Made by a program: the position numbers and the translations under genes
Assembly: GCA_964017185.1 (NCBI GenBank)
Contig: OZ024873.1
Location: 51,384,760-51,448,759, forward strand
Reading direction: 5' to 3'
DNA length: 64,000 bases
Source of the DNA: Rugalucina vietnamica
Taxonomy: Eukaryota > Mollusca > Bivalvia > Lucinida > Lucinidae
The notes under the pieces: generated by a model
The model's database searches: none
Seen by the model: only the letters and a program-made list of their open reading frames with translations
What the model was told of the DNA's origin: nothing
Shown here: positions 5,301-31,543 of the stretch, one piece after another
How the letters are laid out: each line of letters begins with the position of its first letter
Position numbering within the stretch: the first letter of the stretch is position 1

Positions 5301-5439
5301 CAAGTAACGTCTCCAAATAGTAGTTTTAAGCACGAACGTCAAGTTAGTTGTCGGTTGTCGGTTGACGGTTGACTATTCAAAAAACTAAGTTATTTTTGGT
5401 CAACTTTGCACTTAGCTTTTTTCTGCCACTATTCGATCT

Positions 5440-8400
5440 TAGTTTTTTTGTGTCAAAATCAAAGTTTTTTCTATGTTGGAAAAAAATCGAACTTAGTTTT
5501 TCGAATAGTCAACCGACAACTAGTTGTCAGTTGACTATTCGGACTTAGTTTTTTTGTGTCAAAATCAAAGTTTTTTCTATGTTGGAAAAAAATCGAACTT
5601 AGTTTTTCGAATAGTCAACCGACAACTAATTGTCAGTTGACTATTCGGACTTAGTTTTTTTGTGTCAAAATCAAAGTTTTTTCTATGTTGGAAAAAAATC
5701 GAACTTAGTTTTTCGAATAGTCAACCGACAACTAGTTGTCAGTTGACTATTCGGACTTAGTTTTTTTGGGTCAAAATCAAAGTTTTTTCTATGTTGGAAA
5801 AAAATCGAACTTAGTTTTTCGAATAGTCAACCGACAACTAGTTGTCAGTTGACTATTCGGACTTAGTTTTTTTGGGTCAAAATCAAAGTTTTTTCTATGT
5901 TGGAAAAAAATCGAACTTAGTTTTTCGAATAGTCAACCGACAACTAGTTGTCAGTTGACTATTCGGACTTAGTTTTTTTTGGTCAAAATCAAAGTTTTTT
6001 CTATTTTGGAAAAAAATCGAACTTAGTTTTTCGAATAGTCAACCGACAACTAGTTGTCAGTTGACTATTCGGACTTAGTTTTTTGTGTCAAAATCAAAGT
6101 TTTTTCTATGTTGGAAAAAAATCGAACTTAGTTTTTCGAATAGTCAACCGACAACTAGTTGTCAGTTGACTATTCGGACTTAGTTTTTTTGGGTCAAAAT
6201 CAAAGTTTTTTCTATGTTGGAAAAAAATCGAATTTAGTTTTTCGAATAGTCAACCGACAACTAGTTGTCAGTTGACTATTCGGACTTAGTTTTTTTGGGT
6301 CAAAATCAAAGTTTTTTCTATGTTGGAAAAAAATCGAACTTAGTTTTTCGAATAGTCAACCGACAACTAGTTGTCAGTTGACTATTCGGACTTAGTTTTT
6401 TTTGGTCAAAATCAAAGTTTTTTCTATGTTGGAAAAAAATCGAACTTAGTTTTTCGAATAGTCAACCGACAACTAGTTGTCAGTTGACTATTCGGACTTA
6501 GTTTTTTGTGTCAAAATCAAAGTTTTTTCTATGTTGGAAAAAAATCGAACTTAGTTTTTCGAATAGTCAACCGACAACTAGTTGTCAGTTGACTATTCGG
6601 ACTTAGTTTTTTTGTGTCAAAATCAAAGTTTTTTCTATGTTGGAAAAAAATCGAACTTAGTTTTTCGAATAGTCAACCGACAACTAGTTGTCAGTTGACT
6701 ATTCGGACTTAGTTTTTTTGGGTCAAGATCAAAGTTTTTTCTATGTTGGAAAAAAATCGAACTTAGTTTTTCGAATAGTCAACCGACAACTAGTTGTCAG
6801 TTGACTATTCGGACTTAGTTTTTTTGTGTCAAAATCAAAGTTTTTTCTATGTTGGAAAAAAATCGAACTTAGTTTTTCGAATAGTCAACCGACAACTATT
6901 TGTCAGTTGACTATTCGGACTTAGTTTTTTTGGGTCAAGATCAAAGTTTTTTCTATGTTGGAAAAAAATCGAACTTAGTTTTTCGAATAGTCAACCGACA
7001 ACTAGTTGTCAGTTGACTATTCGGACTTAGTTTTTTTTGGGTCAAAATCAAAGTTTTTTCTATGTTGGAAAAAAATCGAACTTAGTTTTTCGAATAGTCA
7101 ACCGACAACTAGTTGTCGGTTGACTATTCGGACTTAGTTTTTTTGGGTCAAAATCAAAGTTTTTTCTATGTTGGAAAAAATCGAACTTAGTTTTTCGAAT
7201 AGTCAACCGACAACTAGTTGTCGGTTGACTATTCGGACTTAGTTTTTTTGGGTCAAAATCAAAGTTTTTTCTATGTTGGAAAAAAATCGAACTTAGTTTT
7301 TCGAATAGTCAACCGACATCTAGTTGTCAGTTGACTATTCGGACTTAGTTTTTTGTGTCAAAATCAAAGTTTTTTCTATGTTGGAAAAAAATCGAACTTA
7401 GTTTTTCGAATAGTCAACCGACAACTAGTTGTCGGTTGACTATTCGGACTTAGTTTTTTTGGGTCAAAATCAAAGTTTTTTCTATGTTGGAAAAAAATCG
7501 AACTTAGTTTTTCGAATAGTCAACCGACAACTAGTTGTCAGTTGACTATTCGGACTTAGTTTTTTGGGTCAAAATCAAAGTTTTTTCTATGTTGGAAAAA
7601 AATCGAACTTAGTTTTTCGAATAGTCAACCGACAACTAGTTGTCAGTTGACTATTCGGACTTAGTTTTTTTGTGTCAAAATCAAAGTTTTTTCTATGCTG
7701 GAAAAAAATCGAACTTAGTTTTTCGAATAGTCAACCGACAACTAGTTGTCAGTTGACTATTCGGACTTAGTTTTTTTGGGTCAAAATCAAAGTTTTTTCT
7801 ATGTTGGAAAAAAATCGAACTTAGTTTTTCGAATAGTCAACCGACAACTAGTTGTCAGTTGACTATTCGGACTTAGTTTTTTTGGGGTCAAAATCAAAGT
7901 TTTTTCTATGTTGGAAAAAAATCGAACTTAGTTTTTCGAATAGTCAACCGACAACTAGTTGTCAGTTGACTATTCGGACTTAGTTTTTTTTGGTCAAAAT
8001 CAAAGTTTTTTCTATGTTGGAAAAAAATCGAACTTAGTTTTTCGAATAGTCAACCGACAACTAGTTGTCAGTTGACTATTCGGACTTAGTTTTTTGTGTC
8101 AAAATCAAAGTTTTTTCTATGTTGGAAAAAAATCGAACTTAGTTTTTCGAATAGTCAACCGACAACTAGTTGTCAGTTGACTATTCGGACTTAGTTTTTT
8201 TGTGTCAAAATCAAAGTTTTTTCTATGTTGGAAAAAAATCGAACTTAGTTTTTCGAATAGTCAACCGACAACTAGTTGTCAGTTGACTATTCGGACTTAG
8301 TTTTTTTGGGTCAAGATCAAAGTTTTTTCTATGTTGGAAAAAAATCGAACTTAGTTTTTCGAAAAGTCAACCGACAACTAGTTGTCAGTTGACTATTCGG

Positions 8401-11400
8401 ACTTAGTTTTTTTTGGGTCAAAATCAAAGTTTTTTCTATGTTGGAAAAAAATCAAACTTAGTTTTTCGAATAGTCAACCGACAACTAGTTGTCAGTTGAC
8501 TATTCGGACTTAGTTTTTTTGGGTTAAAATCAAAGTTTTTTCTATGTTGGAAAAAAATCGAACTTAGTTTTTCGAATAGTCAACCGACAACTAGTTGTCG
8601 GTTGACTATTCGGACTTAGTTTTTTTGGGTCAAAATCAAAGTTTTTTCTATGTTGGAAAAAAATCGAACTTAGTTTTTCGAATAGTCAACCGACAACTAG
8701 TTGTCAGTTGACTATTCGGACTTAGTTTTTTGTGTCAAAATCAAAGTTTTTTCTATGTTGGAAAAAAATCGAACTTAGTTTTTCGAATAGTCAACCGACA
8801 ACTAGTTGTCGGTTGACTATTCGGACTTAGTTTTTTTGGGTCAAAATCAAAGTTTTTTCTATGTTGGAAAAAAATCGAACTTAGTTTTTCGAATAGTCAA
8901 CCGACAACTAGTTGTCAGTTGACTATTCGGACTTAGTTTTTTGGGGTCAAAATCAAAGTTTTTTCTATGTTGGAAAAAAATCGAACTTAGTTTTTCGAAT
9001 AGTCAACCGACATCTAGTTGTCAGTTGACTATTCGGACTTAGTTTTTTTGTGTCAAAATCAAAGTTTTTTCTATGTTGGAAAAAAATCGAACTTAGTTTT
9101 TCGAATAGTCAACCGACAACTAGTTGTCGGTTGACTATTCGGACTTAGTTTTTTTGGGTCAAAATCAAAGTTTTTTCTATGTTGGAAAAAAATCGAACTT
9201 AGTTTTTCGAATAGTCAACCGACAACTAGTTGTCAGTTGACTATTCGGACTTAGTTTTTTTGGGTCAAAATCAAAGTTTTTTCTATGTTGGAAAAAAATC
9301 GAACTTAGTTTTTCGAATAGTCAACCGACAACTAGTTGTCAGTTGACTATTCGGACTTAGTTTTTTTTGGTCAAAATCAAAGTTTTTTCTATGTTGGAAA
9401 AAAATCGAACTTAGTTTTTCGAATAGTCAACCGACAACTAGTTGTCAGTTGACTATTCGGACTTAGTTTTTTTGGGTCAAAATCAAAGTTTTTTCTATGT
9501 TGGAAAAAAATCGAACTTAGTTTTTCGAATAGTCAACCGACAACTAGTTGTCAGTTGACTATTCGGACTTAGTTTTTTTGGGTCAAAATCAAAGTTTTTT
9601 CTATGTTGGAAAAAAATCGAACTTAGTTTTTCGAATAGTCAACCGACAACTAGTTGTCAGTTGACTATTCGGACTTAGTTTTTTTTGGTCAAAATCAAAG
9701 TTTTTTCTATGTTGGAAAAAAATCGAACTTAGTTTTTCGAATAGTCAACCGACAACTAGTTGTCAGTTGACTATTCGGACTTAGTTTTTTTGGGTCAAAA
9801 TCAAAGTTTTTTCTATGTTGGAAAAAAATCGAACTTAGTTTTTCGAATAGTCAACCGACAACTAGTTGTCAGTTGACTATTCGGACTTAGTTTTTTTGGG
9901 TCAAAATCAAAGTTTTTTCTATGTTGGAAAAAAATCGAACTTAGTTTTTCGAATAGTCAACCGACAACTAGTTGTCAGTTGACTATTCGGACTTAGTTTT
10001 TTTTGGTCAAAATCAAAGTTTTTTCTATGTTGGAAAAAAATCGAACTTAGTTTTTCGAATAGTCAACCGACAACTAGTTGTCAGTTGACTATTCGGACTT
10101 AGTTTTTTGTGTCAAAATCAAAGTTTTTTCTATGTTGGAAAAAAATCGAACTTAGTTTTTCGAATAGTCAACCGACAACTAGTTGTCAGTTGACTATTCG
10201 GACTTAGTTTTTTTGTGTCAAAATCAAAGTTTTTTCTATGTTGGAAAAAAATCGAACTTAGTTTTTCGAATAGTCAACCGACAACTAGTTGTCAGTTGAC
10301 TATTCGGACTTAGTTTTTTTGGGTCAAGATCAAAGTTTTTTCTATGTTGGAAAAAAATCGAACTTAGTTTTTCGAATAGTCAACCGACAACTAGTTGTCA
10401 GTTGACTATTCGGACTTAGTTTTTTTTGGGTCAAAATCAAAGTTTTTTCTATGTTGGAAAAAAATCGAACTTAGTTTTTCGAATAGTCAACCGACAACTA
10501 GTTGTCAGTTGACTATTCGGACTTAGTTTTTTTGGGTTAAAATCAAAGTTTTTTCTATGTTGGAAAAAAATCGAACTTAGTTTTTCGAATAGTCAACCGA
10601 CAACTAGTTGTCGGTTGACTATTCGGACTTAGTTTTTTTGGGTCAAAATCAAAGTTTTTTCTATGTTGGAAAAAAATCGAACTTAGTTTTTCGAATAGTC
10701 AACCGACAACTAGTTGTCAGTTGACTATTCGGACTTAGTTTTTTGTGTCAAAATCAAAGTTTTTTCTATGTTGGAAAAAAATCGAACTTAGTTTTTCGAA
10801 TAGTCAACCGACAACTAGTTGTCGGTTGACTATTCGGACTTAGTTTTTTTGGGTCAAAATCAAAGTTTTTTCTATGTTGGAAAAAAATCGAACTTAGTTT
10901 TTCGAATAGTCAACCGACAACTAGTTGTCAGTTGACTATTCGGACTTAGTTTTTTTGGTCAAAATCAAAGTTTTTTCTATGTTGGAAAAAAATCGAACTT
11001 AGTTTTTCGAATAGTCAACCGACATCTAGTTGTCAGTTGACTGTTCGGACTTAGTTTTTTTGTGTCAAAATCAAAGTTTTTTCTATGTTGGAAAAAAATC
11101 GAACTTAGTTTTTCGAATAGTCAACCGACAACTAGTTGTCGGTTGACTATTCGGACTTAGTTTTTTTGGGTCAAAATCAAAGTTTTTTCTATGTTGGAAA
11201 AAAATCGAACTTAGTTTTTCGAATAGTCAACCGACAACTAGTTGTCAGTTGACTATTCGGACTTAGTTTTTTTGGGTCAAAATCAAAGTTTTTTCTATGT
11301 TGGAAAAAAATCGAACTTAGTTTTTCGAATAGTCAACCGACAACTAGTTGTCAGTTGACTATTCGGACTTAGTTTTTTTGGGTCAAAATCAAAGTTTTTT

Positions 11401-11736
11401 CTATGTTGGAAAAAAATCGAACTTAGTTTTTCGAATAGTCAACCGACAACTAGTTGTCAGTTGACTATTCGGACTTAGTTTTTTTGGGTCAAAATCAAAG
11501 TTTTTTCTATGTTGGAAAAAAATCGAACTTAGTTTTTCGAATAGTCAACCGACAACTAGTTGTCAGTTGACTATTCGGACTTAGTTTTTTTTTGGTTAAA
11601 ATCAAAGTTTTTTCTATGTTGGAAAAAAATCGAACTTAGTTTTTCGAATAGTCAACCGACAACTAGTTGTCGGTTGACTATTCGGACTTAGTTTTTTTGG
11701 GTCAAAATCAAAGTTTTTTCTATGTTGGAAAAAAAT
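5440..11736 (+). repeat. 106-bp satellite, left arm (about 60 units)
   Basis: The unit is ~104-108 bp, and most length change is in one T-run. It reads TTGACTATTCGGACTTAG, a T-run, GGGTCAAAATCAAAG, TTTTTTCTATGTTGG, AAAAAAATCGAACTTAG, TTTTTCGAATAGTCAACC. Each unit boundary is a 38-bp palindrome centred on CAACTAGTTG (perfect, or with one mismatched pair). Variants such as GGGTCAAGATC and GACATCTAG recur about 2,012 bp apart, so blocks of about 19 units have been duplicated. No spacers and no coding capacity. Confidence 0.95.
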
Positions 11737-11867
11737 CAGCAGAGTGAAGTTAGTTTGTTTTTCGTTTTTCGTTATTCGACATTCAAGATCAGGTGAAGTT
11801 AGTTTGTTTTTCGTTTTTCGTTATTCGTTTTTCGTTATTCGTTTTTCGTTTTTCGACATTCGAACTG
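11737..11867 (+). repeat. Linker between the two satellites, left arm
   Basis: Positions after AAAAAATCAGCAGAGTG carry two copies of 'gaagttagtttgtttttcg' and several 'cgtttttcgttatt' steps. The reverse copy at about 26097-26221 is the same by eye, including the junctions on both sides. This shows that the two arms are homologous and not just built from the same satellites. Confidence 0.85.
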
Positions 11868-12640
11868 GGACCGAATTTCGTATTTTGACATTCTAAATCC
11901 CATTTTGACATTCGAACTGGGATGGAATTTCGTATTTTGACATTCAAAATCCTATTTTGACATTCGAACTGGGACCGAATTTCTTATTTTGACATTCAAA
12001 ATCCCATTTTGACATTCGAACTGGGACCGAATTTCGTATTTTGACATTCAAAATCCTATTATGACATTCGAACTGGGACCGAATTTCGTATTTTGACATT
12101 CAAAATCCTATTTTGACATTCGAACTGGGACCGAATTTCGTATTTTGACATTCAAAATCCTATTTTGACATTCGAGCTGGGACCGAATTTCGTATTTTGA
12201 CATTCAAAATCCTATTTTGACATTCGAGCTGGGACCGAATTTCTTATTTTGACATTCAAAATCCTATTTTGACATTCGAACTGGGACCGAATTTCTTATT
12301 TTGACATTCAAAATCCTATTTTGACATTCGAACTGGGATCGAATTTCTTATTTTGACATTCAAAATCCTATTTTGACATTCGAACTGGGACGGAATTTCG
12401 TATTTTGACATTCAAAATCCTATTTTGACATTCGAACTGGGACGGAATTTTGTATTTTGACATTCAAAATCCTATTTTGACATTCGAAATGGGACCGAAT
12501 TTCTTATTTTGACATTCAAAATCCCATTTTGACATTCGAACTCGGACCGAATTTCGTATTTTGACATTCAAAATCCCATTTTGACATTCGAACTGGGACC
12601 GAATTTCGTATTTTGACATTCAAAATCCTATTTTGACATC
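11868..12640 (+). repeat. 52-bp satellite, left arm (about 15 units)
   Basis: Each unit has a 32-bp half (GACATTCGAACTGGGACCGA then ATTTCGTATTTT) and a 20-bp half (GACATTCAAAATCCTATTTT), so TTTTGACATTC occurs twice per unit. The order of variant units (GGGATGG, CGAGCTGGG twice, GGGATCG, GGGACGG twice, CGAAATGGG) matches, in reverse, the outer 770 bp of the right-arm array (about 25.3-26.1 kb). Confidence 0.93.
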
Positions 12641-12825
12641 GATTTTGAATGTCAAAATACGAAATTCGGTCCCATTTCGAATGTCAAAATAGGATTTTGA
12701 ATGTCAAAATACGAAATTCGGTCCCAGTTCGAATGTCAAAATAGGATTTTGAATGTCAAAATACGAAATTCGGTCCCAATTCGAATGTCAAAATGGGATT
12801 TTGAATGTCAAAATACGAAATTCGG

Positions 12826-12827
<2 letters not shown>
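12641..12827 (-). repeat. 52-bp satellite, inverted block 1
   Basis: Orientation flips at 12640, where GACATC meets GATTTTGAATGTC. About 3.5 reversed units follow until the array is broken by a CA-repeat. Confidence 0.9.
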
Positions 12828-12887
<60 letters not shown>

Positions 12888-13018
12888 ATTAGTTTATTAC
12901 CAACCAATCTACAAAGATCTTGAAACAACTTTACACTAACATACCTACCTAATGATTTTATATACTTATTTGCACACGCACATGTAAAAATACATACATA
13001 CATACATACATACATACA

Positions 13019-13049
<31 letters not shown>

Positions 13050-13076
13050 GTAAAAATACATACATACATACATACA

Positions 13077-13107
<31 letters not shown>

Positions 13108-13299
13108 GAAAAATACATACATACATACATACATACATACATACATACATACATACATACATACATACATACATACATACATACATACATACATACATAC
13201 ATACATACATACATACATACATACATACATACATACATACATACATACATACATACATACAAACTTCCTTTGTTAAAATACAAACACATACATACATAC

Positions 13300-13330
<31 letters not shown>

Positions 13331-13541
13331 CATACATACATACATACATACATACATACATACATACATACATACATACATACATACATACACATGTAAA
13401 ATACATACATACATACATACATACATACATACATACATACATACATACATACATACATACATACATACATACATACATACATACATACTTCCTTTAATAG
13501 ATTGTATACATACTTATTTGCACACGCACACGTAAAATACA

Positions 13542-13572
<31 letters not shown>

Positions 13573-13818
13573 TTGCTTTTGTTTGTATACATACATACAT
13601 ACATACATACATACATACATACATACATACATACATACATACATACATACATACATACATACATACATACATACGTCTGATGATAGTCGATTCTGTAATC
13701 TTGTATATAGTATGCCACTGTAATTAATATAAGTTAAATAAATAAAAGTCAGGTTGTGTACTGGTGTCCGATGGGGAGGAGGTGCGGACAAAAAAAAAAG
13801 AGAGAGAGAAAAAAAAAA
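12826..13818. repeat. Microsatellite block: (CA)n, (ACAT)n and purine tract
   Basis: (CA)n lies at about 12826-12883. Long ACAT tetranucleotide tracts then run from about 12990 to 13676. They are broken by a short island, 'cttatttgcacacgcac..gtaaaa', which occurs twice (about 12967 and 13515). The block ends in ~110 bp of unique sequence with AATAAATAAAAG and an A-rich/GA-rich run. It is inserted in the reversed satellite, which resumes at 13819. All Tyr-Val-Cys-Met and Thr-His open frames here are translations of the repeat. Confidence 0.92.
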
Positions 13819-14022
13819 TGTCAAAATAAGAAATTCGGTACCAGTTCGAATGTCAAAATGGGATTTTGAATGTCAAAATACGAAATTCGGTCCCAGTTCG
13901 AATGTCAAAATGGGATTTTGAATGTCAAAATACGAAATTCGGTCCAATTTCGAATGTCAAAATAGGATTTTGAATGTCAAAATACGAAATTCGGTCCCAG
14001 TTCGAATGTCAAAATAGGATTT
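13819..14022 (-). repeat. 52-bp satellite, inverted block 2
   Basis: The reversed units continue after the microsatellite block. They end at AAAATAGGATTT, where the array turns back to the forward direction. Confidence 0.9.
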
Positions 14023-15112
14023 CCGAATTTCGTATTTTGACATTCTAAATCCCATTTTGACATTCGAACTGGGATGGAATTTCGTATTTTGACATTCAAA
14101 ATCCTATTTTGACATTCGAACTGGGACCGAATTTCTTATTTTGACATTCAAAATCCCATTTTGACATTCGAACTGGGACCGAATTTCGTATTTTGACATT
14201 CAAAATCCTATTTTGACATTCGAACTGGGACGGAATTTCTTATTTTGACATTCAAAATCCTATTTTGACATTCGAACTGGGACCGAATTTCGTATTTTGA
14301 CATTCAAAATCCTATTTTGACATTCGAACTGGGACCGAATTTCTTATTTTGACATTCAAAATCCTATTTTGACATTCGAACTGGGACCGAATTTCGTATT
14401 TTGACATTCAAAATCCTATTTTGACATTCGAAATGGGACCGAATTTCGTATTTTGACATTCAAAATCCTATTTTGACATTCGAACTGGGACCGAATTTCG
14501 TAATTTGACATTCAAAATCCTATTTTGACATTCGAACTGGGACCGAATTTCTTATTTTGACATTCAAAATCCTATTTTGACATTCAAACTGGGACCGAAT
14601 TTCGTATTCTGACATTCAAAATCCTATTTTGACATTCGAACTTGGACCGAATTTCTTATTTTGATATTCAAAATCCTATTTTGACATTCGAACTTGGACC
14701 GAATTTCGTATTTGGCATTCAAAATCCTATTTTGAGATTCAAACTGGGACCGAATTTCGTATTTTGACATTCAAAATCCTATTTTGACATTCGAACTGGG
14801 ACCGAATTTCTTATTTTGACAATCAAAATCCTATTTTGACATTCGATTTGGCCTTGAATATGCTATTTTGATATTCAAAATACTATTTTGACATTCTATT
14901 TGGTCAGGAATATGCTATTTTGATATTCAAAATCCTATTTTGACATTCCATTTGGTCAGAAATATGCTATTTTGACATTCAATATCCTGTTTTGACATTC
15001 CATTTGGTGAGGAATCTGCTATTTTGATATTCAAAATCCTATTTTGACATTCAAATTTGCCAAGTATATGCTATTTTGATATTCAAAATCCTATTTTGAC
15101 ATTCTATTTGAT
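14023..15112 (+). repeat. 52-bp satellite, forward block with decaying inner edge
   Basis: The first units (from about 14028) repeat in order the start of the left-arm block at 11868: TTCTAAATCCC, then GGGATGG, then a CTTATT unit. This suggests a copied segment. From about 14840 the units change to a diverged type with TATTTGGTCAGGAATATGC and TTTTGATATTC, and the array fades at 15112. Confidence 0.9.
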
Positions 15113-15121
15113 TTTGATATT

Positions 15122-15278
15122 TGGTAGTGGTCGCCCGTTCAGATTCGTTGGTTTTCCCCTGGTTCTCCGAGCTCCTCCACTACGTTGGACCACATAACGC
15201 CAACATCCGCGCCTTCAAGAATGCGTATATAAGTTCAATGAGCTTTCTGTGTGATTGAAATAAGATAAACCTTTTTAG
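15122..15278 (+). mobile_element. Retroposon insertion (SINE-like tail) in the satellite
   Basis: A 157-bp non-satellite insert flanked by TTTGATATT on both sides (15113-15121, 15279-15287), a string native to the interrupted satellite. It holds 'ggttttcccctggttctccg', which resembles a segment common in invertebrate SINE/LINE tails. That is recalled resemblance, not a search. It ends in an A-rich 'gaaataagataaac'. No tRNA head is present, so it would be 5'-truncated. Confidence 0.6.
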
Positions 15279-15287
15279 TTTGATATT

Positions 15288-15413
15288 CAAAATCCTATTT
15301 TGACATTCGATTTTGTCAAGAATATGCTAGTTTGATATTCAAAATCCTATTTGACGGGCTTTTTTTTTTTTTTTTTTTTTTGTATGTTATAATGTGCATA
15401 CCCATATTGTTTG
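15288..15413. repeat. Residual satellite units and poly-T tract
   Basis: Two decayed 52-bp-type units ('gatattcaaaatcctatttt') are followed by a 21-T run at 15361-15381 and ~30 bp of unique sequence. The poly-T could be the reversed poly-A tail of a lost retroposon, but no body is visible. Confidence 0.6.
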
Positions 15414-16107
15414 TTAAGGGGTGCTCACACCACAGCGTATAGCGCCAGCGTATGACGACGTATGCGACATTTTGTCCATACGTTGGTGTACGTTGCACAT
15501 GTTCGGCATAAATTTTGCATAAGTTACGGGTACGCTACAATACGCTGTCATACGTTGTCGTGCGCCGTGTACATGCACAAAATTTCCAACGTATGGCGAC
15601 GTACTGATAATACGTTACTAATAAGTTAGGCGTACGCAACGAATACGCTATGCATAAGTTCACGAACGTTACCTGTAAGTAACTCATACGCTCGCATACG
15701 TTGTCATACGCCAAAGCTCTCCTGTATTTTTAGCGTATGAGAAGCGTATTACCAACGTACGAGCAGCGTTTGCCTGGCGCACTCGGAACGTATGCAGCGT
15801 ATGTGAAACGTGTGAAGAACGTTCTCAGCGTATGCGCAACTTACGCGTAGCGCATTGGTCGGGATTTTATATATAAAAATGGAAGGAATAGGTACTGTGT
15901 TCATGATTAAATAGTCACACGGAAGCATCAAAATGGTATACTCGACCAAAAACAATCTGCACAATTGTGTGTATGGCTAAAATTTTATCCACTGTTATAT
16001 TATCGCTTGTCAAGATAATATTTTTGTAAGGACGGGATGCCTTCAAAGCTCATATTGAATGGCCCTTTATAAAATTGTCGACATATAAAGTTCCAAAGGT
16101 TTTTATA

Positions 16108-17036: not shown

Positions 17037-17053
17037 TATCATGCATGCCTGCA

Positions 17054-17311
17054 GCGCTTTTATTTTTATTTATTTATTTATTTATTTATTTTTTTTTGTA
17101 TTTTTTTTTCAATTCAGTTTAACGTCCCTTTCAAGATTATTTCAACTCATATTATAAGACGGATCAATCGAGAGGTGGGGCAAAACTGACCCATAAACTA
17201 ATTTCAACCTAATTATAGGAAATGATCCTTCTGAGAAACGATATAAGAACTCCACAAAATGCACCTGAAGAATCAGGTATGTAGATTTCCTTAATCATTT
17301 TTCTTTTTCTT

Positions 17312-17354
<43 letters not shown>

Positions 17355-17357
17355 TTT
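17054..17357. repeat. (TTTA)n microsatellites in family C copy 1
   Basis: Two TTTA runs, at about 17054-17100 and 17306-17357, bracket ordinary family C sequence that is also present in copy 2 (for example GAGAAACGATATAAGAA). The second run matches a short 'tttatttatt' in copy 2, so it expanded after insertion or differs between copies. Confidence 0.85.
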
Positions 17358-17381
17358 TTCACTTTTTACTGGATATGTCTA

Positions 17382-19607: not shown

Positions 19608-20752
19608 TCTGTCACACATTCACGTATCAGCGGCGTATCGCTCGCGTATCTATGAAAATGTCAATACGCCGAGGTCTGAGCCGTATTTTGCTCGTGCGAC
19701 GTATGTACCACGTATGTGTGACGTTCCTGCTACGTTCCCGTGGCGTATACGTGACGTATCTGAACTCGTATGGAATTTCACTTTCGTATGTACGGCGTAT
19801 CAAGGCGTATGTGCTACGTATGTGTGACGTATGTATGGCTTATGAAGTGTACGCGTGACGAATATACGACGTATGTACTACGTTCCATTATTATCTGCGG
19901 CGTATCTGCTTTGCACCAATTGCTTTTTAATACCTATGAGAACAAACGATTGTGTTCACTTTGTTCATGCAGTTCGCATATTATAGCTATCAATTATCAG
20001 GGGTCGAAGATGCCACCGGAGAAATCTAGAGCAACACCGAAGGAAAAAAAAAAACAAATGTGGTGGTGGTGGGGGAGGGGGGCATCTCCTAGTTCCCCAT
20101 CCTGGTCGTAAGAGGACATTAACAAAGATAGAGGCTACACCAAGCATAGCCCTGAAAGAACCCTGCATGGCACTCAGAACCGTGAGAAACAACTGATCCA
20201 TGGCTTCGGAAAAACGAAAACATGCATATAGAAGCATTGAGATTCTCTTAAAAAGCCACAAAATGTTCCCAATACGTCACACATACTCCACAGCAGCGAA
20301 ACGTGCGTAGCACATACGTAGCACATACGCCATTGATACGCGAGATACGCCACACGTACGTCGCTGATAGAAACAAAAAGAGAGTCGATGATACGCCACA
20401 CATACGTCACACATACGTTGCAGATACGAAAGTACGCTGTACATACGTCACGGTTACGTGACATCTTAACCGCGACGTACGTGTGGCGTATGAGGAGTAT
20501 GAGCTACGTATCTACGGCGTACCTGCCATGTTGCTTTCTATGTACCACGTATGTGTGACGTATGTACGGCGTATCCGACCTGCCACGTACGTGCCACGAA
20601 TTTTTAAGTGCACACAAGAAAACGTAACACCTCGGCGTATGAGGAGTTTGAGCTACGTATTCTCACGTATGTACGTACGCGTGACATACCTTTCGTATCT
20701 CGATAAGCCGTAGATACGTGAGTCGATACGCGATAGTGTGACAGCGGTTTAA
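19608..20752. mobile_element. Nested element, family F
   Basis: The left end contains CTGTCACACATTCACGTATC and the right end, on the other strand, CGCTGTCACACTATCGCGTATC. Both ~350-bp arms are built from CGTATGTGTGACGTATG-type strings in both orientations. The 300-bp centre (about 19960-20270) is of different composition and includes an A-run followed by TGGTGGTGGTGG and a G-rich run. A short start-like frame at 20010 (MPPEKSRATPKE) leads into that run. No function can be given. The insertion splits the family E interior. Confidence 0.7.
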
Positions 20753-21280
20753 GTATAGGGAAAGTGTTCTCTTTAAACATCGAAAGAAAAACTTAATTAT
20801 TATCGTATTCTGTTGTAGGTTCGCTTATAAGCTATTGAAAATAGCTGCATGCACGAGTACTCTCACTGGGCATGAGTATTCACAACTTTCGGAAAAAAGC
20901 TACAGCGACTTCGGTTTACAAGAAACAAATATCCTCCCTGTGGCGAATAATTATGTTCAGCGGCTGTTTGGTTCAGATTTTAGAATCATGCGCATTTTCA
21001 TGGGATGTGGCATGTAGCTGGTTGTTAGGCAGTCTACCGTGCTGAGCTGACGGGTCCCATTTGGCTTCACCAAGAAAGGTATCATGTTCGCCAAATCTCG
21101 TCGGGCCATCGGACATGATCGATAAAAACCGCCCTGGGCCGACTTATATTTCTGAACGCAAGACACTGTGAACGACGTCATTTTTGGTCGAAATTTGTTC
21201 GAAACGTAAGGTCATGAAACTGATCGTTTCGGTTCATTCTTGTCCATTCGGTTTTATTTTGACTGGTTGTCATTGTCGCA
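20753..21280. other. Interior of family E, right of the F insertion
   Basis: Non-arm sequence with several short open frames on both strands (60-74 codons at 20835-21017 and 20957-21181). I recognise no domain in them. It may be the remainder of the unit whose start is the MADF-like relic. Confidence 0.4.
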
Positions 21281-21701
21281 AAATATTCGTGATCTATCCA
21301 TATGATGACCGCACGATACCCGTACGATTGTAATAACCTTGCGATATAGCCGTACGTATGTCGCACGATCACCCTGAAGGTCTACAATTATCTTACGATT
21401 TTAGTCCCCAACTTATCATAAAAACCGTGCGGTGACCGCTCGATCACCGCATGGTTTCCGTAAGGCGCCCGTACGATACTACCTACGACGTGTCTACGGG
21501 CTACGGTCTTACATTTTTTAAAAAATTATAAAATTGCAGACTACTACAAAATCGTACTGGAGGCTACGGAGATCGTAGAAAGCCGTAGGAAGCCGTAGAA
21601 TCGTAGGAACATCGTAGGGTCACCCTGTGGAGACCGCACGAAAATGCAAAAAATGACATCGCACGATCATCGCAAGCTAATCGTAGGCCAAATATAACCT
21701 A

Positions 21702-22008
21702 GTCTCTACTCATAGCATTTATCAATTACAAGCAATTACTGTAAAAAAATCTCTAACAGTTTTCCCACTAATGTTTTGGTAACACTAGCACTTACGGATA
21801 GTTTCGGATGAAATTTTTAAACCTTTTTGAGCTAAGCTAAAATAATTTGACTGGGGTTAGATAAGGGTACTTAAGGATGAACATATTATATCCTTAAGTA
21901 CCCTTGTCTTGCATAAATTCGTCACAAAATCTTAGCTATGCCACAAAAATATCCACAAAAATATCAGAATTTCACCCAAACTACTCTTAAGAAATAGTGT
22001 GACATACG
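21702..22008. other. Unique spacer with a 16-bp hairpin
   Basis: Contains a perfect inverted pair, AAGGGTACTTAAGGAT at 21863-21878 and ATCCTTAAGTACCCTT at 21890-21905, with an 11-nt AT-rich loop. No downstream T-run or gene suggests a role. I see nothing else here. Confidence 0.6.
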
Positions 22009-22409
22009 CCCCTGTCTCACTGGAATGCGAGAACTGGAGACAAAATGTTGCGGCGACAGGTTCGCGACACTCGCGCGACAGTCTTGCGAAATATTTTGGC
22101 ATAAAATTTTTTAACATGTTTAAAACTTTCGCGACCAGTTCTCGACTAGTTAAGCTAGTATCTCACTGGCATGCGAATTTAATCTAGTATTCTGCTGGCA
22201 TGCGAATGTCCCTCGACTGTTTTGCGAATTTAATCGGACTTTCGCACGACAATCGTGCGAGTGTCGCACGAGTGTCGTGAGAATTTTCAAGTGTCGCGAA
22301 CAGGTCGCGAAGGTTTTGAACATGTTCAAAAATTTAATGCAATTTTTTTTTGCCAAAATGTTTCGCAAGACTGTCGCGTGCGCGACTGTCTTGAAACAGT
22401 CGTACGACG
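22009..22409. mobile_element. TCGCGA-rich inverted-repeat element, family G
   Basis: Starts near CCTGTCTCACTGGAATGCGAG. It is packed with TCGCGACA, TCGCGCGACAGTC, GCACGAGTGTCG and their reverses. A second internal end ('tatctcactggcatgcgaat' at about 22158) suggests a nested or duplicated copy. 'ttttttaacatgtttaaaac' and 'gaacatgttcaaaaattta' form an inner inverted pair. The right edge abuts the right-arm satellite. Boundaries are approximate. Confidence 0.6.
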
Positions 22410-25400
22410 TTTGAATGTCAAAATACGAAATTCGGTCCCAGATCGGATGTCATAATAGGATTTTGAATGTCAAAATACGAAATTCGGTCCCAGTTCGAAT
22501 GTCAAAATAGGATTTTGAATGTCAAAATACGAAATTCGGTCCCAGTTCGAATGTCAAAATAGGATTTTGAATGTCAAAAGTTCGAATGTCAAAATAGGAT
22601 TTTGAAAGTCAAAATACGAAATTCGGTCCCAGTTCGAATGTCAAAATAGGATTTTGAATGTCAAAATACGAAATTCGGTCCCAGTTCGAATGTCAAAATA
22701 GGATTTTGAATGTCAAAATAAGAAATTCGGACCCAGTTCGAATGTCAAAATAGGATTTTGAATGTCAAAATAAGAAATTCGGTCCCAGTTCGAATGTCAA
22801 AATAGGATTTTGAATGTCAAAATAAGAAATGAAATTCGGTCCCAGTTCGAATGTCAAAATAGGATTTTGAATGTCAAAATACGAAATTCGGTCCAAGTTC
22901 GAATGTCAAAATAGGATTTTGAATGTCAAAATACGAAATTCGGTCCAAGTTCGAATGTCAAAATAGGATTTTGAATGTCAAAATACGAAATTCGGTCCCA
23001 GTTCGAATGTCAAAATACGATTTTGAATGTCAAAATACGAAATTCGGTCCCAGTTCGAATGTCAAAATAGGATTTTGAATGTCAAAATACGAAATTCGAT
23101 CCCAGTTCGAATGTCAAAATAGGATTTTGAATGTCAAAATACGAAATTCGGTCCCAGTTCGAATGTCAAAATAGGATTTTGAATGTCAAAATAAGAAATT
23201 CGGTCCAAGTTCGAATGTCAAAATAGGATTTTGAATGTCAAAATAAGAAATTCTGTCCAAGTTCGAATGTCAAAATAGGATTTTGAATGTCAAAATACGA
23301 AATTCGGTCCCAGTTCTAATGTCAAAATAGGATTCTGAATGTCAAAATAAGAAATTCGGTCCAAGTTCAAATGTCAAAATAGGATTTTGAATGTCAAAAT
23401 ACGAAATTCGGTCCTAGTTCTAATGTCAAAATAGGATTTTGAATGTCAAAATAAGAAATTCGGTCCCAGTTCGAATGTCAAAATAGGATTTTGAATGTCA
23501 AAATAAGAAATTCGGCGCCAGTTCGAATGTCAAAATAGGATTTTGAATGTCAAAATAAGAAATTCGGCGCCAGTTCGAATGTCAAAATAGGATTTTGAAT
23601 GTCAAAATAAGAAATTCGGTCCAAGTTCGAATGTCAAAATAGGATTTTGAATGTCAAAATACGAAATTCGGTCCCAGTTCGAATGTCAAAATAGGATTTT
23701 GAATGTCAAAATACGAAATTCGGTCCCAGTTCGAATGTCAAAATAGGATTTTGAATGTCAAAATAGGATTTTGAATGTCAAAATAAGAAATTCGGTCCCA
23801 GTTCGAAAGTCAAAATAGGATTTTGAATGTCAAAATACGAAATTCGGTCCCAGTTCGAATGTCAAAATAGGATTTTGAATGTCAAAATACGAAATTCGGT
23901 CCCAGTTCGAATGTCAAAATAGGATTTTGAATGTCAAAATACGAAATTCGGTCCCAGCTCGAATGTCAAAATAGGATTTTGAATGTCAAAATACGAAATT
24001 CGGTCCCAGTTCGAATGTCAAAATAGGATTTTGAATGTCAAAATGCGAAATTCGGTCCCAGTTCGAATGTCAAAATAGGATTTTGAATGTCAAAATACGA
24101 AATTCGGTCCAAGTTCGAATGTCAAAATAGGATTTTGAATGTCAATATAAGAAATTCGGTCCAAGTTCGAATGTCAAAATAGGATTTTGAATGTCAAAAT
24201 ACGAAATTCGGTCTCAGTTCGAATGTCAAAATAGGATTTTGAATGTCAAAATACGAAATTCGGTCCCAGTTCGAATGTCAAAATAGGATTTTGAATGTCA
24301 AAATACGAAATTCGGTCCCAGTTCGAATGTCAAAATAGGATTTTGAATTTCAAAATACGAAATTCGGTCCCAGTTCGAATGTCAAAATAGGATTTTGAAT
24401 GTCAAAATACGAAATTCGGTCCAAGTTCGAATGTCAAAATAGGATTTTGAATGTCAAAATAAGAAATTCGGTCCCAGTTCGAATGTCAAAATAGGATTTT
24501 GAATGTCAAAATACGAAATTCGGTCCCAGCTCGAATGTCAAAATAGGATTTTGAATGTCAAAATACGAAATTCGGTCCTAGTTCTAATGTCAAAATAGGA
24601 TTTTTAATGTCAAAATACGAAATTCGGTCCCAGTTCGAATGTCAAAATAGGATTTTGAATGTCAAAATACGAAATTCGGTCCCAGTTCGAAAGTCAAAAT
24701 AGGATTTTGAATGTCAAAATACGTAATTCGGTCCAAGTTCGAATGTCAAAATAGGTTTTTGAATGTCAAAATACGAAATTCGGTCCCAGTTCGAATGTCA
24801 AAATAGGATTTTGAATGTCAAAATACGAAATTCGGTCCCAGTTCGAATGTCAAAATGGGATTTTGAATGTCAAAATACGAAATTCGGTCCGTGTTCGAAT
24901 GTCAAAATAGGATTTTGAATGTCAAAATACGAAATTCGGTCCCAGTTCGAATGTCAAAATAGGATTTTGAATGTCAAAATACGAAATTCGGTCCCAGTTC
25001 GAATGTCAAAATAGGATTTTGAATGTCAAAATACGAAATTCGGTCCCAGCTCGAAAGTCAAAATAGGATTTTGAATGTCAAAATACGAAATTCGGTCCTA
25101 GTTCTAATGTCAAAATAGGATTTTTAATGTCAAAATACGAAATTCGGTCCCAGTTCGAATGTCAAAATACGATTTTGAATGTCAAAATAAGAAATTCGGT
25201 CCCAGTTCGAAAGTCAAAATAGGATTTTGAATGTCAAAATACGAAATTCGGTCCAAGTTCGAATGTCAAAATAGGTTTTTGAATGTCAAAATACGAAATT
25301 CGGTCCCAGTTCGAATGTCAAAATAGGATTTTGAATGTCAAAATACGAAATTCGGTCCCAGTTCGAATGTCAAAATGGGATTTTGAATGTCAAAATACGA

Positions 25401-26096
25401 AATTCGGTCCGTGTTCGAATGTCAAAATGGGATTTTGAATGTCAAAATAAGAAATTTGGTCCCATTTCGAATGTCAAAATAGGATTTTGAATGTCAAAAT
25501 ACGAAATTCCGTCCCAGTTCGAATGTCAAAATAGGATTTTGAATGTCAAAATACGAAATTCCGTCCCAGTTCGAATGTCAAAATAGGATTTTGAATGTCA
25601 AAATAAGAAATTCGATCCCAGTTCGAATGTCAAAATAGGATTTTGAATGTCAAAATAAGAAATTCGGTCCCAGTTCGAATGTCAAAATACGATTTTGAAT
25701 GTCAAAATACGAAATTCGGTCCCAGCTCGAATGTCAAAATAGGATTTTGAATGTCAAAATACGAAATTCGGTCCCAGCTCGAATGTCAAAATAGGATTTT
25801 GAATGTCAAAATACGAAATTCGGTCCCAGTTCGAATGTCAAAATAGGATTTTGAATGTCAAAATACGAAATTCGGTCCCAGTTCGAATGTCAAAATAGGA
25901 TTTTGAATGTCAAAATACGAAATTCGGTCCCAGTTCGAATGTCAAAATGGGATTTTGAATGTCAAAATAAGAAATTCGGTCCCAGTTCGAATGTCAAAAT
26001 AGGATTTTGAATGTCAAAATACGAAATTCCATCCCAGTTCGAATGTCAAAATGGGATTTAGAATGTCAAAATACGAAATTCGGTCCCAGTTCGAAT
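22410..26096 (-). repeat. 52-bp satellite, right arm (about 70 units)
   Basis: Reverse orientation of the left-arm unit (GAATGTCAAAATAGGATTTT then GAATGTCAAAATACGAAATT). Variants repeat in blocks: ATAGGTTTTTGAATG at about 24751 and 25271, TCCGTGTTCG at about 24888 and 25408, and a TTTTTAATGTC unit likewise. All give a ~520-bp (10-unit) higher-order period near the outer end. It is about 3 kb longer than the left-arm block. Confidence 0.95.
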
Positions 26097-26221
26097 GTCG
26101 AAAAACGAAAAACGAATAACGAAAAACGAATAACGAAAAACGAAAAACAAACTAACTTCACCTGATCTTGAATGTCGAATAACGAAAAACGAAAAACAAA
26201 CTAACTTCACTCTGCTGATTT
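26097..26221 (-). repeat. Linker between the two satellites, right arm
   Basis: The inverted copy of 11737-11867: 'aataacgaaaaacg' steps and two copies of 'cgaaaaacaaactaacttc', joining the 52-bp and 106-bp arrays with the same junctions as on the left. Confidence 0.85.
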
Positions 26222-29200
26222 TTTTCCAACATAGAAAAAACTTTGATTTTGACCCCAAAAAACTAAGTCCGAATAGTCAACCGACAACTAGTTGTCGGTT
26301 GACTATTCGAAAAACTAAGTTCGATTTTTTTACAACATAGAAAAAACTTTGATTTTAACCCAAAAAAACTAAGTCCGAATAGTCAACTGACAACTAGTTG
26401 TCGGTTGACTATTCGAAAAACTAAGTTCGATTTTTTTCCAACATAGAAAAAACTTTGATTTTGACCCAAAAAAAACTAAGTCCGAATAGTCAACTGACAA
26501 CTAGTTGTCGGTTGACTATTCGAAAAACTAAGTTCGATTTTTTTCCAACATAGAAAAAACTTTGATTTTGACCCAAAAAAACTAAGTCCGAATAGTCAAC
26601 CGACAACTAGTTGTCGGTTGACTATTCGAAAACTTAAGTTCGATTTTTTTCCAACATAGAAAAAACTTTGATTTTGACCCAAAAAAACTAAGTCCGAAAA
26701 GTCAACTGACAACTAGTTGTCGGTTAACTATTCGAAAAACTAAGTTCGATTTTTTTCCAACATAGAAAAAACTTTGATTTTGACCCAAAAAAACTAAGTC
26801 CGAATAGTCAACTGACAACTAGTTGTCGGTTGACTATTCGAAAAACTAAGTTCGATTTTTTTCCAACATAGAAAAAACTTTGATTTTGACCCAAAAAAAC
26901 TAAGTCCGAATAGTCAACTGACAACTAGTTGTCGGTTGACTATTCGAAAAACTAAGTTCGATTTTTTCCAACATAGAAAAAACTTTGATTTTGACCCAAA
27001 AAAACTAAGTCCGAATAGTCAACCGACAACTAGTTGTCGGTTGACTATTCGAAAAACTAAGTTCGATTTTTTTCCAACATAGAAAAAACTTTGATTTTAA
27101 CCAAAAAAAACTAAGTCCGAATAGTCAACCGACAACTAGTTGTCGTTTGACTATTCGAAAAACTAAGTTCGATTTTTTTCCAACATAGAAAAAAACTTTG
27201 ATTTTGACCCAAAAAAAACTAAGTCCGAATAGTCAACTGACAACTAGTTGTCGGTTGACTATTCGAAAACTTTGATTTTGACCAAAAAAAACTAAGTCCG
27301 AATAGTCAACTGACAACTAGTTGTCGGTTGACTATTCGAAAAACTAAGTTCGATTTTTTTCCAACATAGAAAAAACTTTGATTTTGACCCAAAAAAACTA
27401 AGTCCGAATAGTCAACTGACAACTAGTTGTCGGTTGACTATTCGAAAAACTAAGTTCGATTTTTTTCCAACATAGAAAAAACTTTGATTTTGACACAAAA
27501 AAACTAAGTCCGAATAGTCAACCGACAACTAGTTGTCGGTTGACTATTCGAAAAACTAAGTTCGATTTTTTTCCAACATAGAAAAAACTTTGATTTTGAC
27601 CCAAAAAAACTAAGTCCGAATAGTCAACTGACAACTAGTTGTCGGTTGACTATTCGAAAAACTAAGTTCGATTTTTTTCCAACATAGAAAAAACTTTGAT
27701 TTTGACCCAAAAAAACTAAGTCCGAATAGTCAACCGACAACTAGTTGTCGGTTGACTATTCGAAAAACTAAGTTCGATTTTTTTCCAACATAGAAAAAAC
27801 TTTGATTTTGACACAAAAAAACTAAGTCCGAATAGTCAACCGACAACTAGTTGTCGGTTGACTATTCGAAAAACTAAGTTCGATTTTTTTCCAGCATAGA
27901 AAAAACTTTGATTTTGACCCAAAAAAACTAAGTCCGAATAGTCACCTGACAACTAGTTGTCGGTTGACTATTCGAAAAACTAAGTTCGATTTTTTTCCAA
28001 CATAGAAAAAACTTTGATTTTGACCCAAAAAAACTAAGTCCGAATAGTCAACTGACAACTAGTTGTCGGTTGACTATTCGAAAAACTAAGTTCGATTTTT
28101 TTCCAACATAGAAAAAACTTTGATTTTGACCCAAAAAAACTAAGTCCGAATAGTCAACTGACAACTAGTTGTCGGTTGACTATTCGAAAAACTAAGTTCG
28201 ATTTTTTTCCAACATAGAAAAAACTTTGATTTTGACCCAAAAAAACTAAGTCCGAATAGTCAACTGACAACTAGTTGTCGGTTGACTATTCGAAAAACTA
28301 AGTTCGATTTTTTTCCAACATAGAAAAAACTTTGATTTTGACACAAAAAAACTAAGTCCGAATAGTCAACTGACAACTAGTTGTCGGTTGACTATTCGAA
28401 AAACTAAGTTCGATTTTTTTCCAACATAGAAAAAACTTTGATTTTGACCCAAAAAAACTAAGTCCGAATAGTCAACTGACAACTAGTTGTCGGTTGACTA
28501 TTCGAAAAACTAAGTTCGATTTTTTACAAAACTAAGTTCGATTTTTTTCCAACATAGAAAAAACTTTGATTTTGACCCAAAAAAACTAAGTCCGAATAGT
28601 CAACTGACAAATAGTTGTCGGTTTACTATTCGAAAAACTAAGTTCGATTTTTAGCTCACCTGAGCCGTAGGCTCACAGGTGAGCTTATAGGATGGCCATG
28701 ATCCGGCGTCCGTCCGTCGTCCGTCGTCCGTCGTCCGTCGTCCGTCGTCGTCGTCGTCGTCGTCCACCATTTTCAAAGATCTTCTCCTCTGAAACCGCTT
28801 GGCCAATCAAAGCCAAATTTTATGTGAAGCATCTATAGGAAGGGGGAACCAAAGTGTATATAAATAATCCAGGTCACATGACCAAGATGGCCGCCATGCC
28901 CATATATGGTAAAATCCTTTAAAAATCTTCTTCTCCAGAACCCAAAGGCCTAGGATCTTGAAACTTGGCATGTAGCATAAGTGACTCAAGGTCCACAATG
29001 TGTATATAAATAATGACCTTAGGATGACCTTGACCTATTTTACGGCAAGGTCAACATAGGTCGCTAATGCATTTGAATGGGGAAAACTTTTAAAATGTCA
29101 TTTAAAGTGAATGTCTTGCAGGAAATGGGCAGTAGGACTGAATATTTATGATTCTGAAAAAAATTGGACCCCAGGGGCTCATATGCCCCCACCCTGGGGA

Positions 29201-31229
29201 AATATACATGTATATTTCCAAAATATTCAAACATCTTCTCCTCTGAAACCCCTTGGCCAATCAAAGCCAAATTTTATATGAAGCATCTATAGGAAGGGGG
29301 AACCAATGTGTATATAAATAATCTAGGTCACATGACCAAGATTGCCACCATGCCCATATATGGTAAAAACCTTATAAAAATCTTCTTCTCCAGAACCCAA
29401 AGGCCTAGGATCTTGAAACTTGGCATGTAGCACTAGTGACTCAAGGTCCACAATGTGTATATAAATAATGACCTTAGGATGACCTTGACCTTTTTTACGG
29501 CAAGGTCAACATAGGTTGCCAATGCATTTGAATGGGGAAAACTTTTGAAATGTCATTTAAAGTGAAAGTCTTGCAGGAAATGCACAGTAGGACTGAATAT
29601 TAATGATTCTGAAAAAGATTGGTCCCCAGGAGCTCATATGCCCCCACCCTGGGGCAGTATGCATGTATATTTCCAAAATATTCAAACATCTTCTCTGAAA
29701 CCACTTGGCCAATCAAAGCCAAATTTTATGTGAAGCATCTATAGGATGGGGTAACCAATGTGTATGTAAGTAATCCAGGTCACATGACCAAGATGGCCGC
29801 CATGCCCATTTATGGTAAAAACCCTTCAAAAATCTTCTTCTCCGGAACCGGTGGACCGATTTCAAAGAAACTTGGCATGAAGCATGGATGGCTGAAGTAC
29901 TACAATGTGTATATAAATCATGACCCTGTGAAGACCTTGACCTATTTGACGACAAGGTCAACATAGGTTGCCAATGCATTAGAATTGGGAAAACTGTTAA
30001 CATTTCATTTGAAGGGAATAAATACAATAGAAATTGGCAGATAGACAGAATATTTATTATTCTGAAAACAAATGGCCCAAGGGCTTCATTTGCCCCTGCA
30101 CTGGGGCTAAATACCATAATATTCAAACATGTTTATTTGTATATGTAGTAGATCTCAGGTGAGCGTTTACAGGACCATTGGTCCTCTGGTTTTCCAACAT
30201 AGAAAAAACTTTGATTTTGACACAAAAAAACTAAAGCCGAATAGTCAACTGACAATTAGTTGTCGGTTGACTATTCGATAAACTAAGTTCGATTTTTTTC
30301 CAACATAGAAAAAACTTTGATTTTGACCCAAAAAAACTAAGTCCGAATAGTCAACTGACAACTAGTTGTCGGTTGACTATTCGAAAAACTAAGTTCGATT
30401 TTTTTCAAAACTAAGTTCGATTTTTTTCCAACATAGAAAAAACTTTGATTTTGACCCAAAAAAACTAAGTCCGAATAGTCAACTGACAACTAGTTGTCGG
30501 TTGACTATTCGAAAAACTAAGTTCGATTTTTTTCCAACATAGAAAAAACTTTGATTTTGACCCAAAAAAACTAAGTCCGAATAGTCAACCGACAACTAGT
30601 TGTCGGTTGACTATTCGAAAAACTAAGTTCGATTTTTTTCCAACATAGAAAAAACTTTGATTTTAACCCCAAAAAACCAAGTCCGAATAGTCAACTGACA
30701 ACTAGTTGTCGGTTGACTATTCGAAAAACTAAGTTCGATTTTTTTCCAGCATAGAAAAAACTTTGATTTTGACCCAAAAAAACTAAGTCCGAATAGTCAA
30801 CTGACAACTAGTTGTCGGTTGACTATTCGAAAAACTAAGTTCGATTTTTTTCAAAACTAAGTTCGATTTTTTTCCAACATAGAAAAAACTTTGATTTTGA
30901 CCCAAAAAAACTAAGTCCGAATAGTCAACCGACAACTAGTTGTCGGTTGACTATTCGAAAAACTAAGTTCGATTTTTTTCCAACATAGAAAAAACTTTGA
31001 TTTTGACACAAAAAAACTAAGTCCGAATAGTCAACTGACAACTAGTTGTCGGTTGACTATTCGAAAAACTAAGTTAGATTTTTTTCCAACATAGAAAAAA
31101 CTTTGATTTTGACCCAAAAAAACTAAGTCCGAATAGTCAACTGACAACTAGTTGTCGGTTGACTATTCGAAAAACTAAGTTCGATTTTTTTCCAACATAG
31201 AAAAAACTTTGATTTTGACACAAAAAAAC
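26222..31229 (-). repeat. 106-bp satellite, right arm (about 34 units)
   Basis: Mirror of 5440-11736 and about half as long, interrupted by a 1.5-kb element at 28653-30189. It has its own irregularities. A ~22-bp extra piece (CAAAACTAAGTTCGATTTTT) recurs at about 28525, 30406 and 30853, and one unit at about 27265 is shortened. The outermost unit, next to the terminus, matches the left terminus exactly. Confidence 0.95.
28653..30189 (+). mobile_element. Family I element, copy 1 (GCTCACCTGAG repeat)
   Basis: Inserted in the right-arm satellite, which continues on both sides. The start is AGCTCACCTGAGCC with CTCACAGGTGAGC just inside. Next come CCGTCGTCCGT steps, then three diverged ~450-bp units carrying CTTCTCCTCTGAAACC, CTTGGCCAATCAAAGCC and AAGATGGCCGCCATGCCC. 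The end is CTCAGGTGAGCG, a GGACCATTGGTCC hairpin and TCTGG. A hairpin just before a CTGG-like end recalls Helitron 3' ends, but the 5' end is not the usual TC. The 137-codon reverse frame at 29713-30126 is repeat sequence read through. Confidence 0.8.
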
Positions 31230-31340
31230 TAAGATCGAATAGTGGCAGAAAAAAGCTAAGTGCAAAGTTGACCAAAAATAACTTAGTTTTTTGAATAGTC
31301 AACCGTCAACCGACAACCGACAACTAACTTGACGTTCGTG

Positions 31341-31543
31341 TTTTAAGCAGTAGTGACTATGATGACTCCTCCAAAGTAGTAGTTTTAATGAGAGCATCAA
31401 TAGTCCAACTCCCTGCTCTAGTTACCATCTATCGTCGACGTCATATAACTCTATCGTCAACATGACGTTGACGTCAACTGACATTATATTATTTATAGAA
31501 ATTATAGGAAATCCAGACAAATCTAAAAATAGACTAAATACCA
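31341..31543 (+). repeat. Segment X, right part of the interrupted copy
   Basis: Continues from the second TTTTAAG with CAGTAGTGACTATGATGAC and ends AGACTAAATACCA, matching 4525-4732. The left part is 5301-5330. Together they form a copy of X split by the giant foldback. Confidence 0.88.

Follow-up and report, generated by a model that had tools for sequence, protein, structure and literature searches.

The nearest precedent that we found for the locus described here is Tetris of Drosophila virilis, a non-autonomous element whose inverted arms hold tandem repeats of ~220 bp, part of which also occurs in the outer tip (PMC4079207; for this and the other papers cited, statements refer to the portions of text available). 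Tetris makes 8-10-bp duplications and has given rise to satellite arrays, and the available text reports its transposase as not found and tentatively names Mutator (PMC4079207). The Tm1 family of root-knot nematodes, a Mutator/Foldback element, ties foldbacks with 9-bp duplications to Phantom/Mutator (PMC3169594). In Galileo of Drosophila the foldback form goes together with a P-type transposase instead, for which the arm repeats hold binding sites (PMC3573991, PMC3688188). Also relevant are Rehavkus and Phantom, which make 9-bp and 8-10-bp duplications respectively and in some elements contain minisatellite (PMC6446971), and the Helentron-derived HINE of the Pacific oyster, which are non-autonomous and scatter satellite-like arrays through the genome (PMC7492417).

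The window analysed here, a stretch of 64,000 nucleotides from the lucinid bivalve Rugalucina vietnamica, contains a 26,008-bp element with arms of ~9 and ~10 kb as assembled. Like Tetris, its family has tip-sharing tandem repeats in the arms, small relatives with the same tips and no transposase that could be found, but Tetris arms reach at most 1,735 bp as against ~9, ~10 and up to ~17.5 kb in the Rugalucina family, complete Tetris copies number three as against 32 tip pairs, and a second nested array is not described in the available account of Tetris (PMC4079207). With Tm1 it shares tandem-repeat arms of variable length, 9-bp duplications and the coexistence of small and large members; Tm1 differs in its ~14-bp repeats and in the Phantom-type transposase carried by some copies, none having been found here (PMC3169594). 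Galileo is alike in its foldback form and the variable tandem repeats of its arms, and differs in its P-superfamily transposase, 7-bp flanks and arms of 18-1,250 bp (PMC3573991, PMC3688188). Rehavkus and Phantom differ in being coding, in inverted ends of only 26-400 and 18-613 bp, and, for Rehavkus, in a one-sided minisatellite (PMC6446971); of the two traits of Rehavkus, 9-bp duplication and PHD-finger transposase, we saw the duplication, and no transposase in the stretches read. HINE have a single central array between unlike flanks and no long inverted arms (PMC7492417). No comparable giant foldback was found in the literature searched, the scope of which excluded most subscription papers, and as far as that literature goes the size, the two nested arrays, the size range and the evidence for separate histories of arms and core are new. 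Arm length is five to ten times that of the foldback families compared, a set that leaves out the older Foldback and sea-urchin TU literature. The element carries, and apparently builds, satellite DNA at an unusual scale, and long inverted repeats of this length are natural substrates for inversions.

Boundaries and parts of the element

Self-comparison together with the ends of other copies places the element at window positions 5332-31339; the window has no N bases. Reading inward from either end, a 96-bp tip is followed by a 106-bp array, a ~112-bp linker and a 52-bp array, and the arms mirror each other, so that the mirror order, both satellites and the inverted tips of the preliminary description are all present. 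That description put the identical outer sequence at ~150 bp; the identity is real and extends further, to 226 bp counted inward from 5331 and 31340. Since the strings surrounding both ends have GTTTTAAGCA in common, the window copy by itself cannot set the boundary. It is set by other copies, in which the tip begins ACGAACGTC and identical 9-mers flank the element (8 of the 9 first-examined copies, the window's included). The duplication of the window copy is therefore GTTTTAAGC, 9 bp, at 5323-5331 and 31340-31348, and the 7 bp originally proposed are its inner part; a 7-bp duplication with the tip CACGAACG is ruled out, as the other copies give 9 bp and the tip ACGAACG. The two arms are unequal, differing in length, monomer order and inserts. 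The parts are:

5323-5331, no strand: left target-site duplication GTTTTAAGC, boundary taken from other copies
5332-5427, plus strand: left tip, 96 bp, ACGAACGTCAAG...
5428-11737, plus strand: left 106-bp satellite array, 59.6 copies
11738-11850, plus strand: left linker
11851-12639, plus strand: left 52-bp array, outer part, collinear with the right arm
12641-14022, minus strand: inverted piece of 52-bp array (12641-12827 and 13817-14022) around CA and ATAC microsatellites
14023-15104, plus strand: left 52-bp array, inner part
15105-22409, no strand: core, type A, with a longest open frame of 115 aa and no transposase domain
22410-26104, minus strand: right 52-bp array
26105-26216, minus strand: right linker
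26217-28652, minus strand: right 106-bp array, inner block
28653-30189, no strand: later insertion of an unrelated dispersed repeat in the right 106-bp array, with a second copy at 47479-48641
30190-31243, minus strand: right 106-bp array, outer block
31244-31339, minus strand: right tip, 96 bp
31340-31348, no strand: right target-site duplication GTTTTAAGC

The 1.5-kb insertion has internal repeats of ~455 bp, and its second copy, outside the element and on the opposite strand, is 76-83% alike. Two pieces of the core (15414-16102 and 17597-17950) resemble sequence to the right of the element (33216-33924 at 85% and 34493-34842 at 83%), so the core contains dispersed genomic repeats. The right part of the window, 50010-64000, is occupied by a 350-bp satellite of ~40 copies with a 95% match, which extends past the window end and has no visible relation to the element.

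A dispersed family with constant tips and variable interiors

The ends of the element were searched for in the assembly to which the window belongs, 1.09 Gb in 47 contigs. A 177-bp end query gave at least 126 matches (best 40 of 417 candidates scored), and a 23-bp tip pattern with up to two mismatches found 82 sites genome-wide, 44 forward and 38 reverse, against none for the reversed pattern. With the 82 tips put in order, neighbours no more than 70 kb apart pair up 32 times as forward-reverse, on 14 contigs, and never as reverse-forward; 17 tips have no partner, and an extra one lies within a pair. Pair sizes run from 72 to 61,045 bp, 22 pairs being at least 20 kb and seven shorter than 1.1 kb. 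The smallest copies bear a sister tip, ACGAACGTAAAG, and the smallest copy with the window-type tip measures 592 bp. All pairs were tested for duplicated flanks, and identical 9-mers border 28 of the 32 (8/9, 10/13 and 10/10), as against none of 90 mismatched-flank comparisons among ten pairs that all have a true duplication. The four pairs without an identical duplication are C1:91415630, C8:9102757, C2:65751763 (3 of 9 positions differ) and C7:30795619 (2 of 9 differ). The 18 duplications compared are 70% A+T, with A or T as the central base in 17. One copy on C12 lies in a host tandem repeat, a neighbouring unit of which is empty. When the two flanks of this copy are put together with a single duplication, they align to that unit across the junction, where a 2-base gap occurs; this copy has a paralogous empty site.

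These data confirm a dispersed, non-autonomous foldback transposon family, with long inverted arms of tandem repeats, arm lengths that vary between and within copies on shared tips, and dispersal with target-site duplications. The foldback-type mobile element with satellite arms that was first read from the window alone is in this way upheld, and other loci with these ends and a duplicated flank, on whose existence that reading had been staked, occur genome-wide. Helentrons have no terminal inverted arms and are not known to make a target duplication, and identity with Helentrons or HINE is ruled out by the inverted tips and the 9-bp duplications. A relaxed tip pattern gave 116 matches against 56 for its control, with no new pairs among the matches listed. 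Also among the matches listed were at least 14 lone unpaired sites of the form ATGAACGT(A/T)AAGTTAGTTG across the genome, e.g., C3:49391397 and C8:1873602.

We read eight copies in full and, of a ninth (C3:17477875), the 10-kb stretch at either end, along with all of seven small sister copies and nearly all of one 10.4-kb sister. Tips are constant and the interior is variable. Type A cores, with a 52-bp inner array, occur in the window, C1:91415630 and C12:17411540. The largest blocks that they share, of 4.6-4.8 kb, have 99.1-99.3% identity, and another of 1.1 kb adjoining one 52-bp array has 95.3-98.0%. Type B (C17:20006665 and C3:17477875) has inner arrays of 46- and 169-bp repeats, and the 3.7 kb of its core that were compared show 98.9% identity. 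Type C (C3:80658665 and C15:41123719) is without an inner array of these kinds, and its C3 core holds pieces of reverse transcriptase in two frames. Two further copies, C9:16662059 and C17:11329217, consist of just tips and 106-bp arrays. The longest arm read, in the C15 copy, holds ~17.5 kb of 106-bp repeats as assembled. The 10.4-kb sister (C7:30795619-30805618) contains a nested non-LTR retrotransposon with endonuclease and reverse transcriptase frames. In a 56-kb copy (read at C4:69995000-70014999) a further, 40-bp satellite was seen in many blocks beside a piece of type A core 99% identical to that of the window, and a 61-kb copy (read at C16:5440000-5449999) has an array of ~6.5 kb whose 105-bp monomer belongs to the sister type.

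Each 106-bp monomer includes a near-palindrome of 38 bp, GAATAGTCAACCGACAACTAGTTGTC[A/G]GTTGACTATTC, in which the inner tip motif stands twice, head to head. Allowing one substitution, this motif was counted 59+59, 23+23 and 9+9 times across the three array blocks, as against zero in 31349-64000. The monomer seems to resemble a small inverted-repeat unit without the outermost tip bases. The palindrome is no better conserved than the other monomer bases (0.0112 vs 0.0083 substitutions per site over 738 monomers), so there is no sign of selection on it, and a role as binding site has no support here. It had been suggested that satellite growth can start from a transposon end or lengthen one. The tip-derived monomer and the 0 to ~17.5 kb of 106-bp array per arm on related tips bear out the connection between end and satellite; the direction of growth is inferred. 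Given this range, and 22 copies of at least 20 kb of which 20 have a readable target duplication, satellite growth, exchange and transposition become measurable copy by copy, in a field where the origin and spread of satellites is an open question.

Histories of arms and core

We compared 738 106-bp monomers from nine copies, keeping spacings of 95-120 bp for this set, 46-58 bp for the 52-bp set and 140-200 bp for the 169-bp set. For order tests arms with fewer than eight monomers were excluded, and arms were aligned as strings of monomers weighted by shared variants; this weighted alignment, with a power check, superseded an earlier collinearity test on exact monomer types that was weak at 1% divergence. 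Mean divergence within arms is 1.5-3.0 differences, apart from 9.4 in the right arm of C3:80658665, and between elements it is 2.4-2.7 differences, or 4.2 for C3:80658665. For 65% of monomers the nearest relative belongs to another element (84% expected), and for 28% it belongs to the same arm (10% expected). When 106-bp arms were compared among the three type A copies, the 12 comparisons scored 4.3-11.5 against shuffled maxima of 4.7-11.5 (five shuffles each), and the five that exceeded their own shuffled maximum did so by at most 2.0. Simulated inheritance of whole arms gave mean scores of 92-381 at 1% divergence and 67-242 at 2%, and a ten-monomer block gave means of 31-50, with single runs as low as 8; conserved whole arms are therefore excluded, and very short conserved blocks could still be present. 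The alignment does detect order in 106-bp arrays where there is any. It picked out block duplications in the left array of the window (monomers 24-36 and 43-55) and in C12:17411540 and C3:17477875; it also matched three monomers of one arm of C1:91415630 with three of the other, and the core-most three monomers of C3:80658665 with those of the C15 copy.

The inner arrays behave differently. Of ten comparisons among the five 52-bp arms with at least 24 monomers, nine are collinear from the linker over 14-20 matched monomers, with scores of 34.5-42.8 against shuffled maxima of 8.6-13.7, whereas the best match of the tenth is next to the core; for the type B 169-bp arrays one comparison in ten stands clearly above its shuffles. 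Hence the linker, the linker-side inner array and the core travel together, and the outer 106-bp arrays do not.

We regard it as likely that the family is a non-autonomous cut-and-paste foldback DNA transposon that relies on a transposase acting in trans, carries satellite derived from its own tip, and has outer arrays that change faster than its core. A transposase supplied in trans, most likely Mutator-like, would recognise the short tip, and insertion would take place at a 9-bp staggered cut, the duplication itself being observed. The 72-bp copy of the sister subfamily has an intact 9-bp duplication, indicating that a tip of ~32-40 bp per end can suffice. The 106-bp satellite consists of tip-derived units and its arrays are altered in length by block duplication, both of which were observed, and three or more kinds of core ride as cargo. 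The loss of order in the outer arrays is likewise observed, and probably reflects exchange, scrambling or rebuilding at a faster rate than change in the core. More tentatively, and in our estimate doubtful, the outer arms may not be inherited with the element at all; around each transposition they would be formed afresh or taken from a pool shared across the genome. If so, the tip would be a seed for newly laid tip-derived satellite, and arms and core would be separate genetic entities on one mobile unit.

In a rival account, outer arrays and core were inherited as one, and it was only after insertion that ordinary unequal exchange and slippage scrambled the arrays where they stood. We hold this to be a genuine possibility, short of probable. 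The block duplications within arrays and the excess of nearest monomers in the same arm both speak for it, as does the slight match of core-most monomers in the window's right arm to those in the left arm of C1:91415630, which scored 6.1 where shuffles reached at most 5.0. However, scrambling in place predicts arms that are uniform within and distinct from one another, whereas in most arms monomers differ about as much inside as between elements, by ~2-3 differences per monomer. This variety within arms argues against long in-place turnover as the sole process.

Candidate transposases and possible exchange between loci

The reading that we prefer depends on a transposase from elsewhere, and the stretches read revealed none between the same ends, where the preliminary description proposed looking for one. 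Ten open reading frames from core types A and B gave one weak Pfam match under the cut-off, and ten from type C and the sister copy gave reverse transcriptase, endonuclease and one weak match, with no transposase. Five slices from the middle of three large copies (20 of 61, 20 of 56 and 10 of 40 kb) contained no transposase-like frame, as judged by open frames of at least 130 aa alone. Searching with PF10551 in six frames, introns ignored, and scoring all 123 candidates, we found 59 matches genome-wide, the nearest 878,682 bp from any tip. None of these 59 belongs to the element or to a partner sharing its tips; a partner whose tips are strongly different or went undetected could still exist. 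One coding MULE locus (L075, C14:25966300-25972300) has 120-bp inverted ends (GGAAGTGTCTCC...) and a 9-bp duplication, AACACTGAA, and its tips are unrelated to those of the family (alignment score 12 vs a shuffled maximum of 13). At a second, L076, terminal inverted ends were not recognised.

A Mutator-like transposase is nonetheless our best guess on the basis of duplication length, as the family duplicates 9 bp in 28 of 32 pairs and the coding MULE of the same genome also duplicates 9 bp. P elements have an 8-bp duplication, and the 9 bp seen here fall outside the 7-8 bp of the P superfamily and Galileo. Mutator-like elements make duplications of 8-11 bp in the available text of PMC6446971, a range that suits the family better than the 7 bp of Galileo, leaving the link to the P superfamily first proposed without support. 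Because no MULE transposase was found, we call the family a foldback by structure and do not class it as a MULE. The enzyme could instead be of another type, e.g., P-type as in Galileo, hAT or Merlin, which we think somewhat unlikely. Foldback structure has arisen with different transposases (PMC3169594, in the portion available) and no MULE lies near the tips, but the prevalence of 9-bp duplications sits poorly with the 7 bp of Galileo (PMC3573991, likewise).

Separate histories of arms and core could also arise if core, linker and inner array were swapped as a cassette, through ectopic recombination or conversion in the shared arrays, with the outer arrays staying at the locus. This would fit the joint movement of the core and the linker-side 52-bp order without the 106-bp order, and the four pairs lacking an identical duplication, the type A copy C1:91415630 among them, could be recombinants. 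Matching duplications in the other 28 pairs, however, mean that single crossovers between loci cannot be the rule, and we consider such swapping improbable as the general explanation. Satellite arrays are hard to assemble and exact array lengths rest on the assembly, yet a mirror symmetry produced by misassembly is hardly credible when the arms differ in length, monomer order and inserts, and when 32 pairs on 14 contigs come with 28 duplications and one empty site.

Two unusual tip arrangements were also recorded. At C12:42003702-42004276 an intact copy has beside it a duplicate of a host repeat unit plus the first 36 bp of the tip, and at least 100 bp of flank are identical. The copy at C17:11328914-11337621 has two tips 140 bp apart at its right end, and the 9-bp duplication adjoins the outer one.
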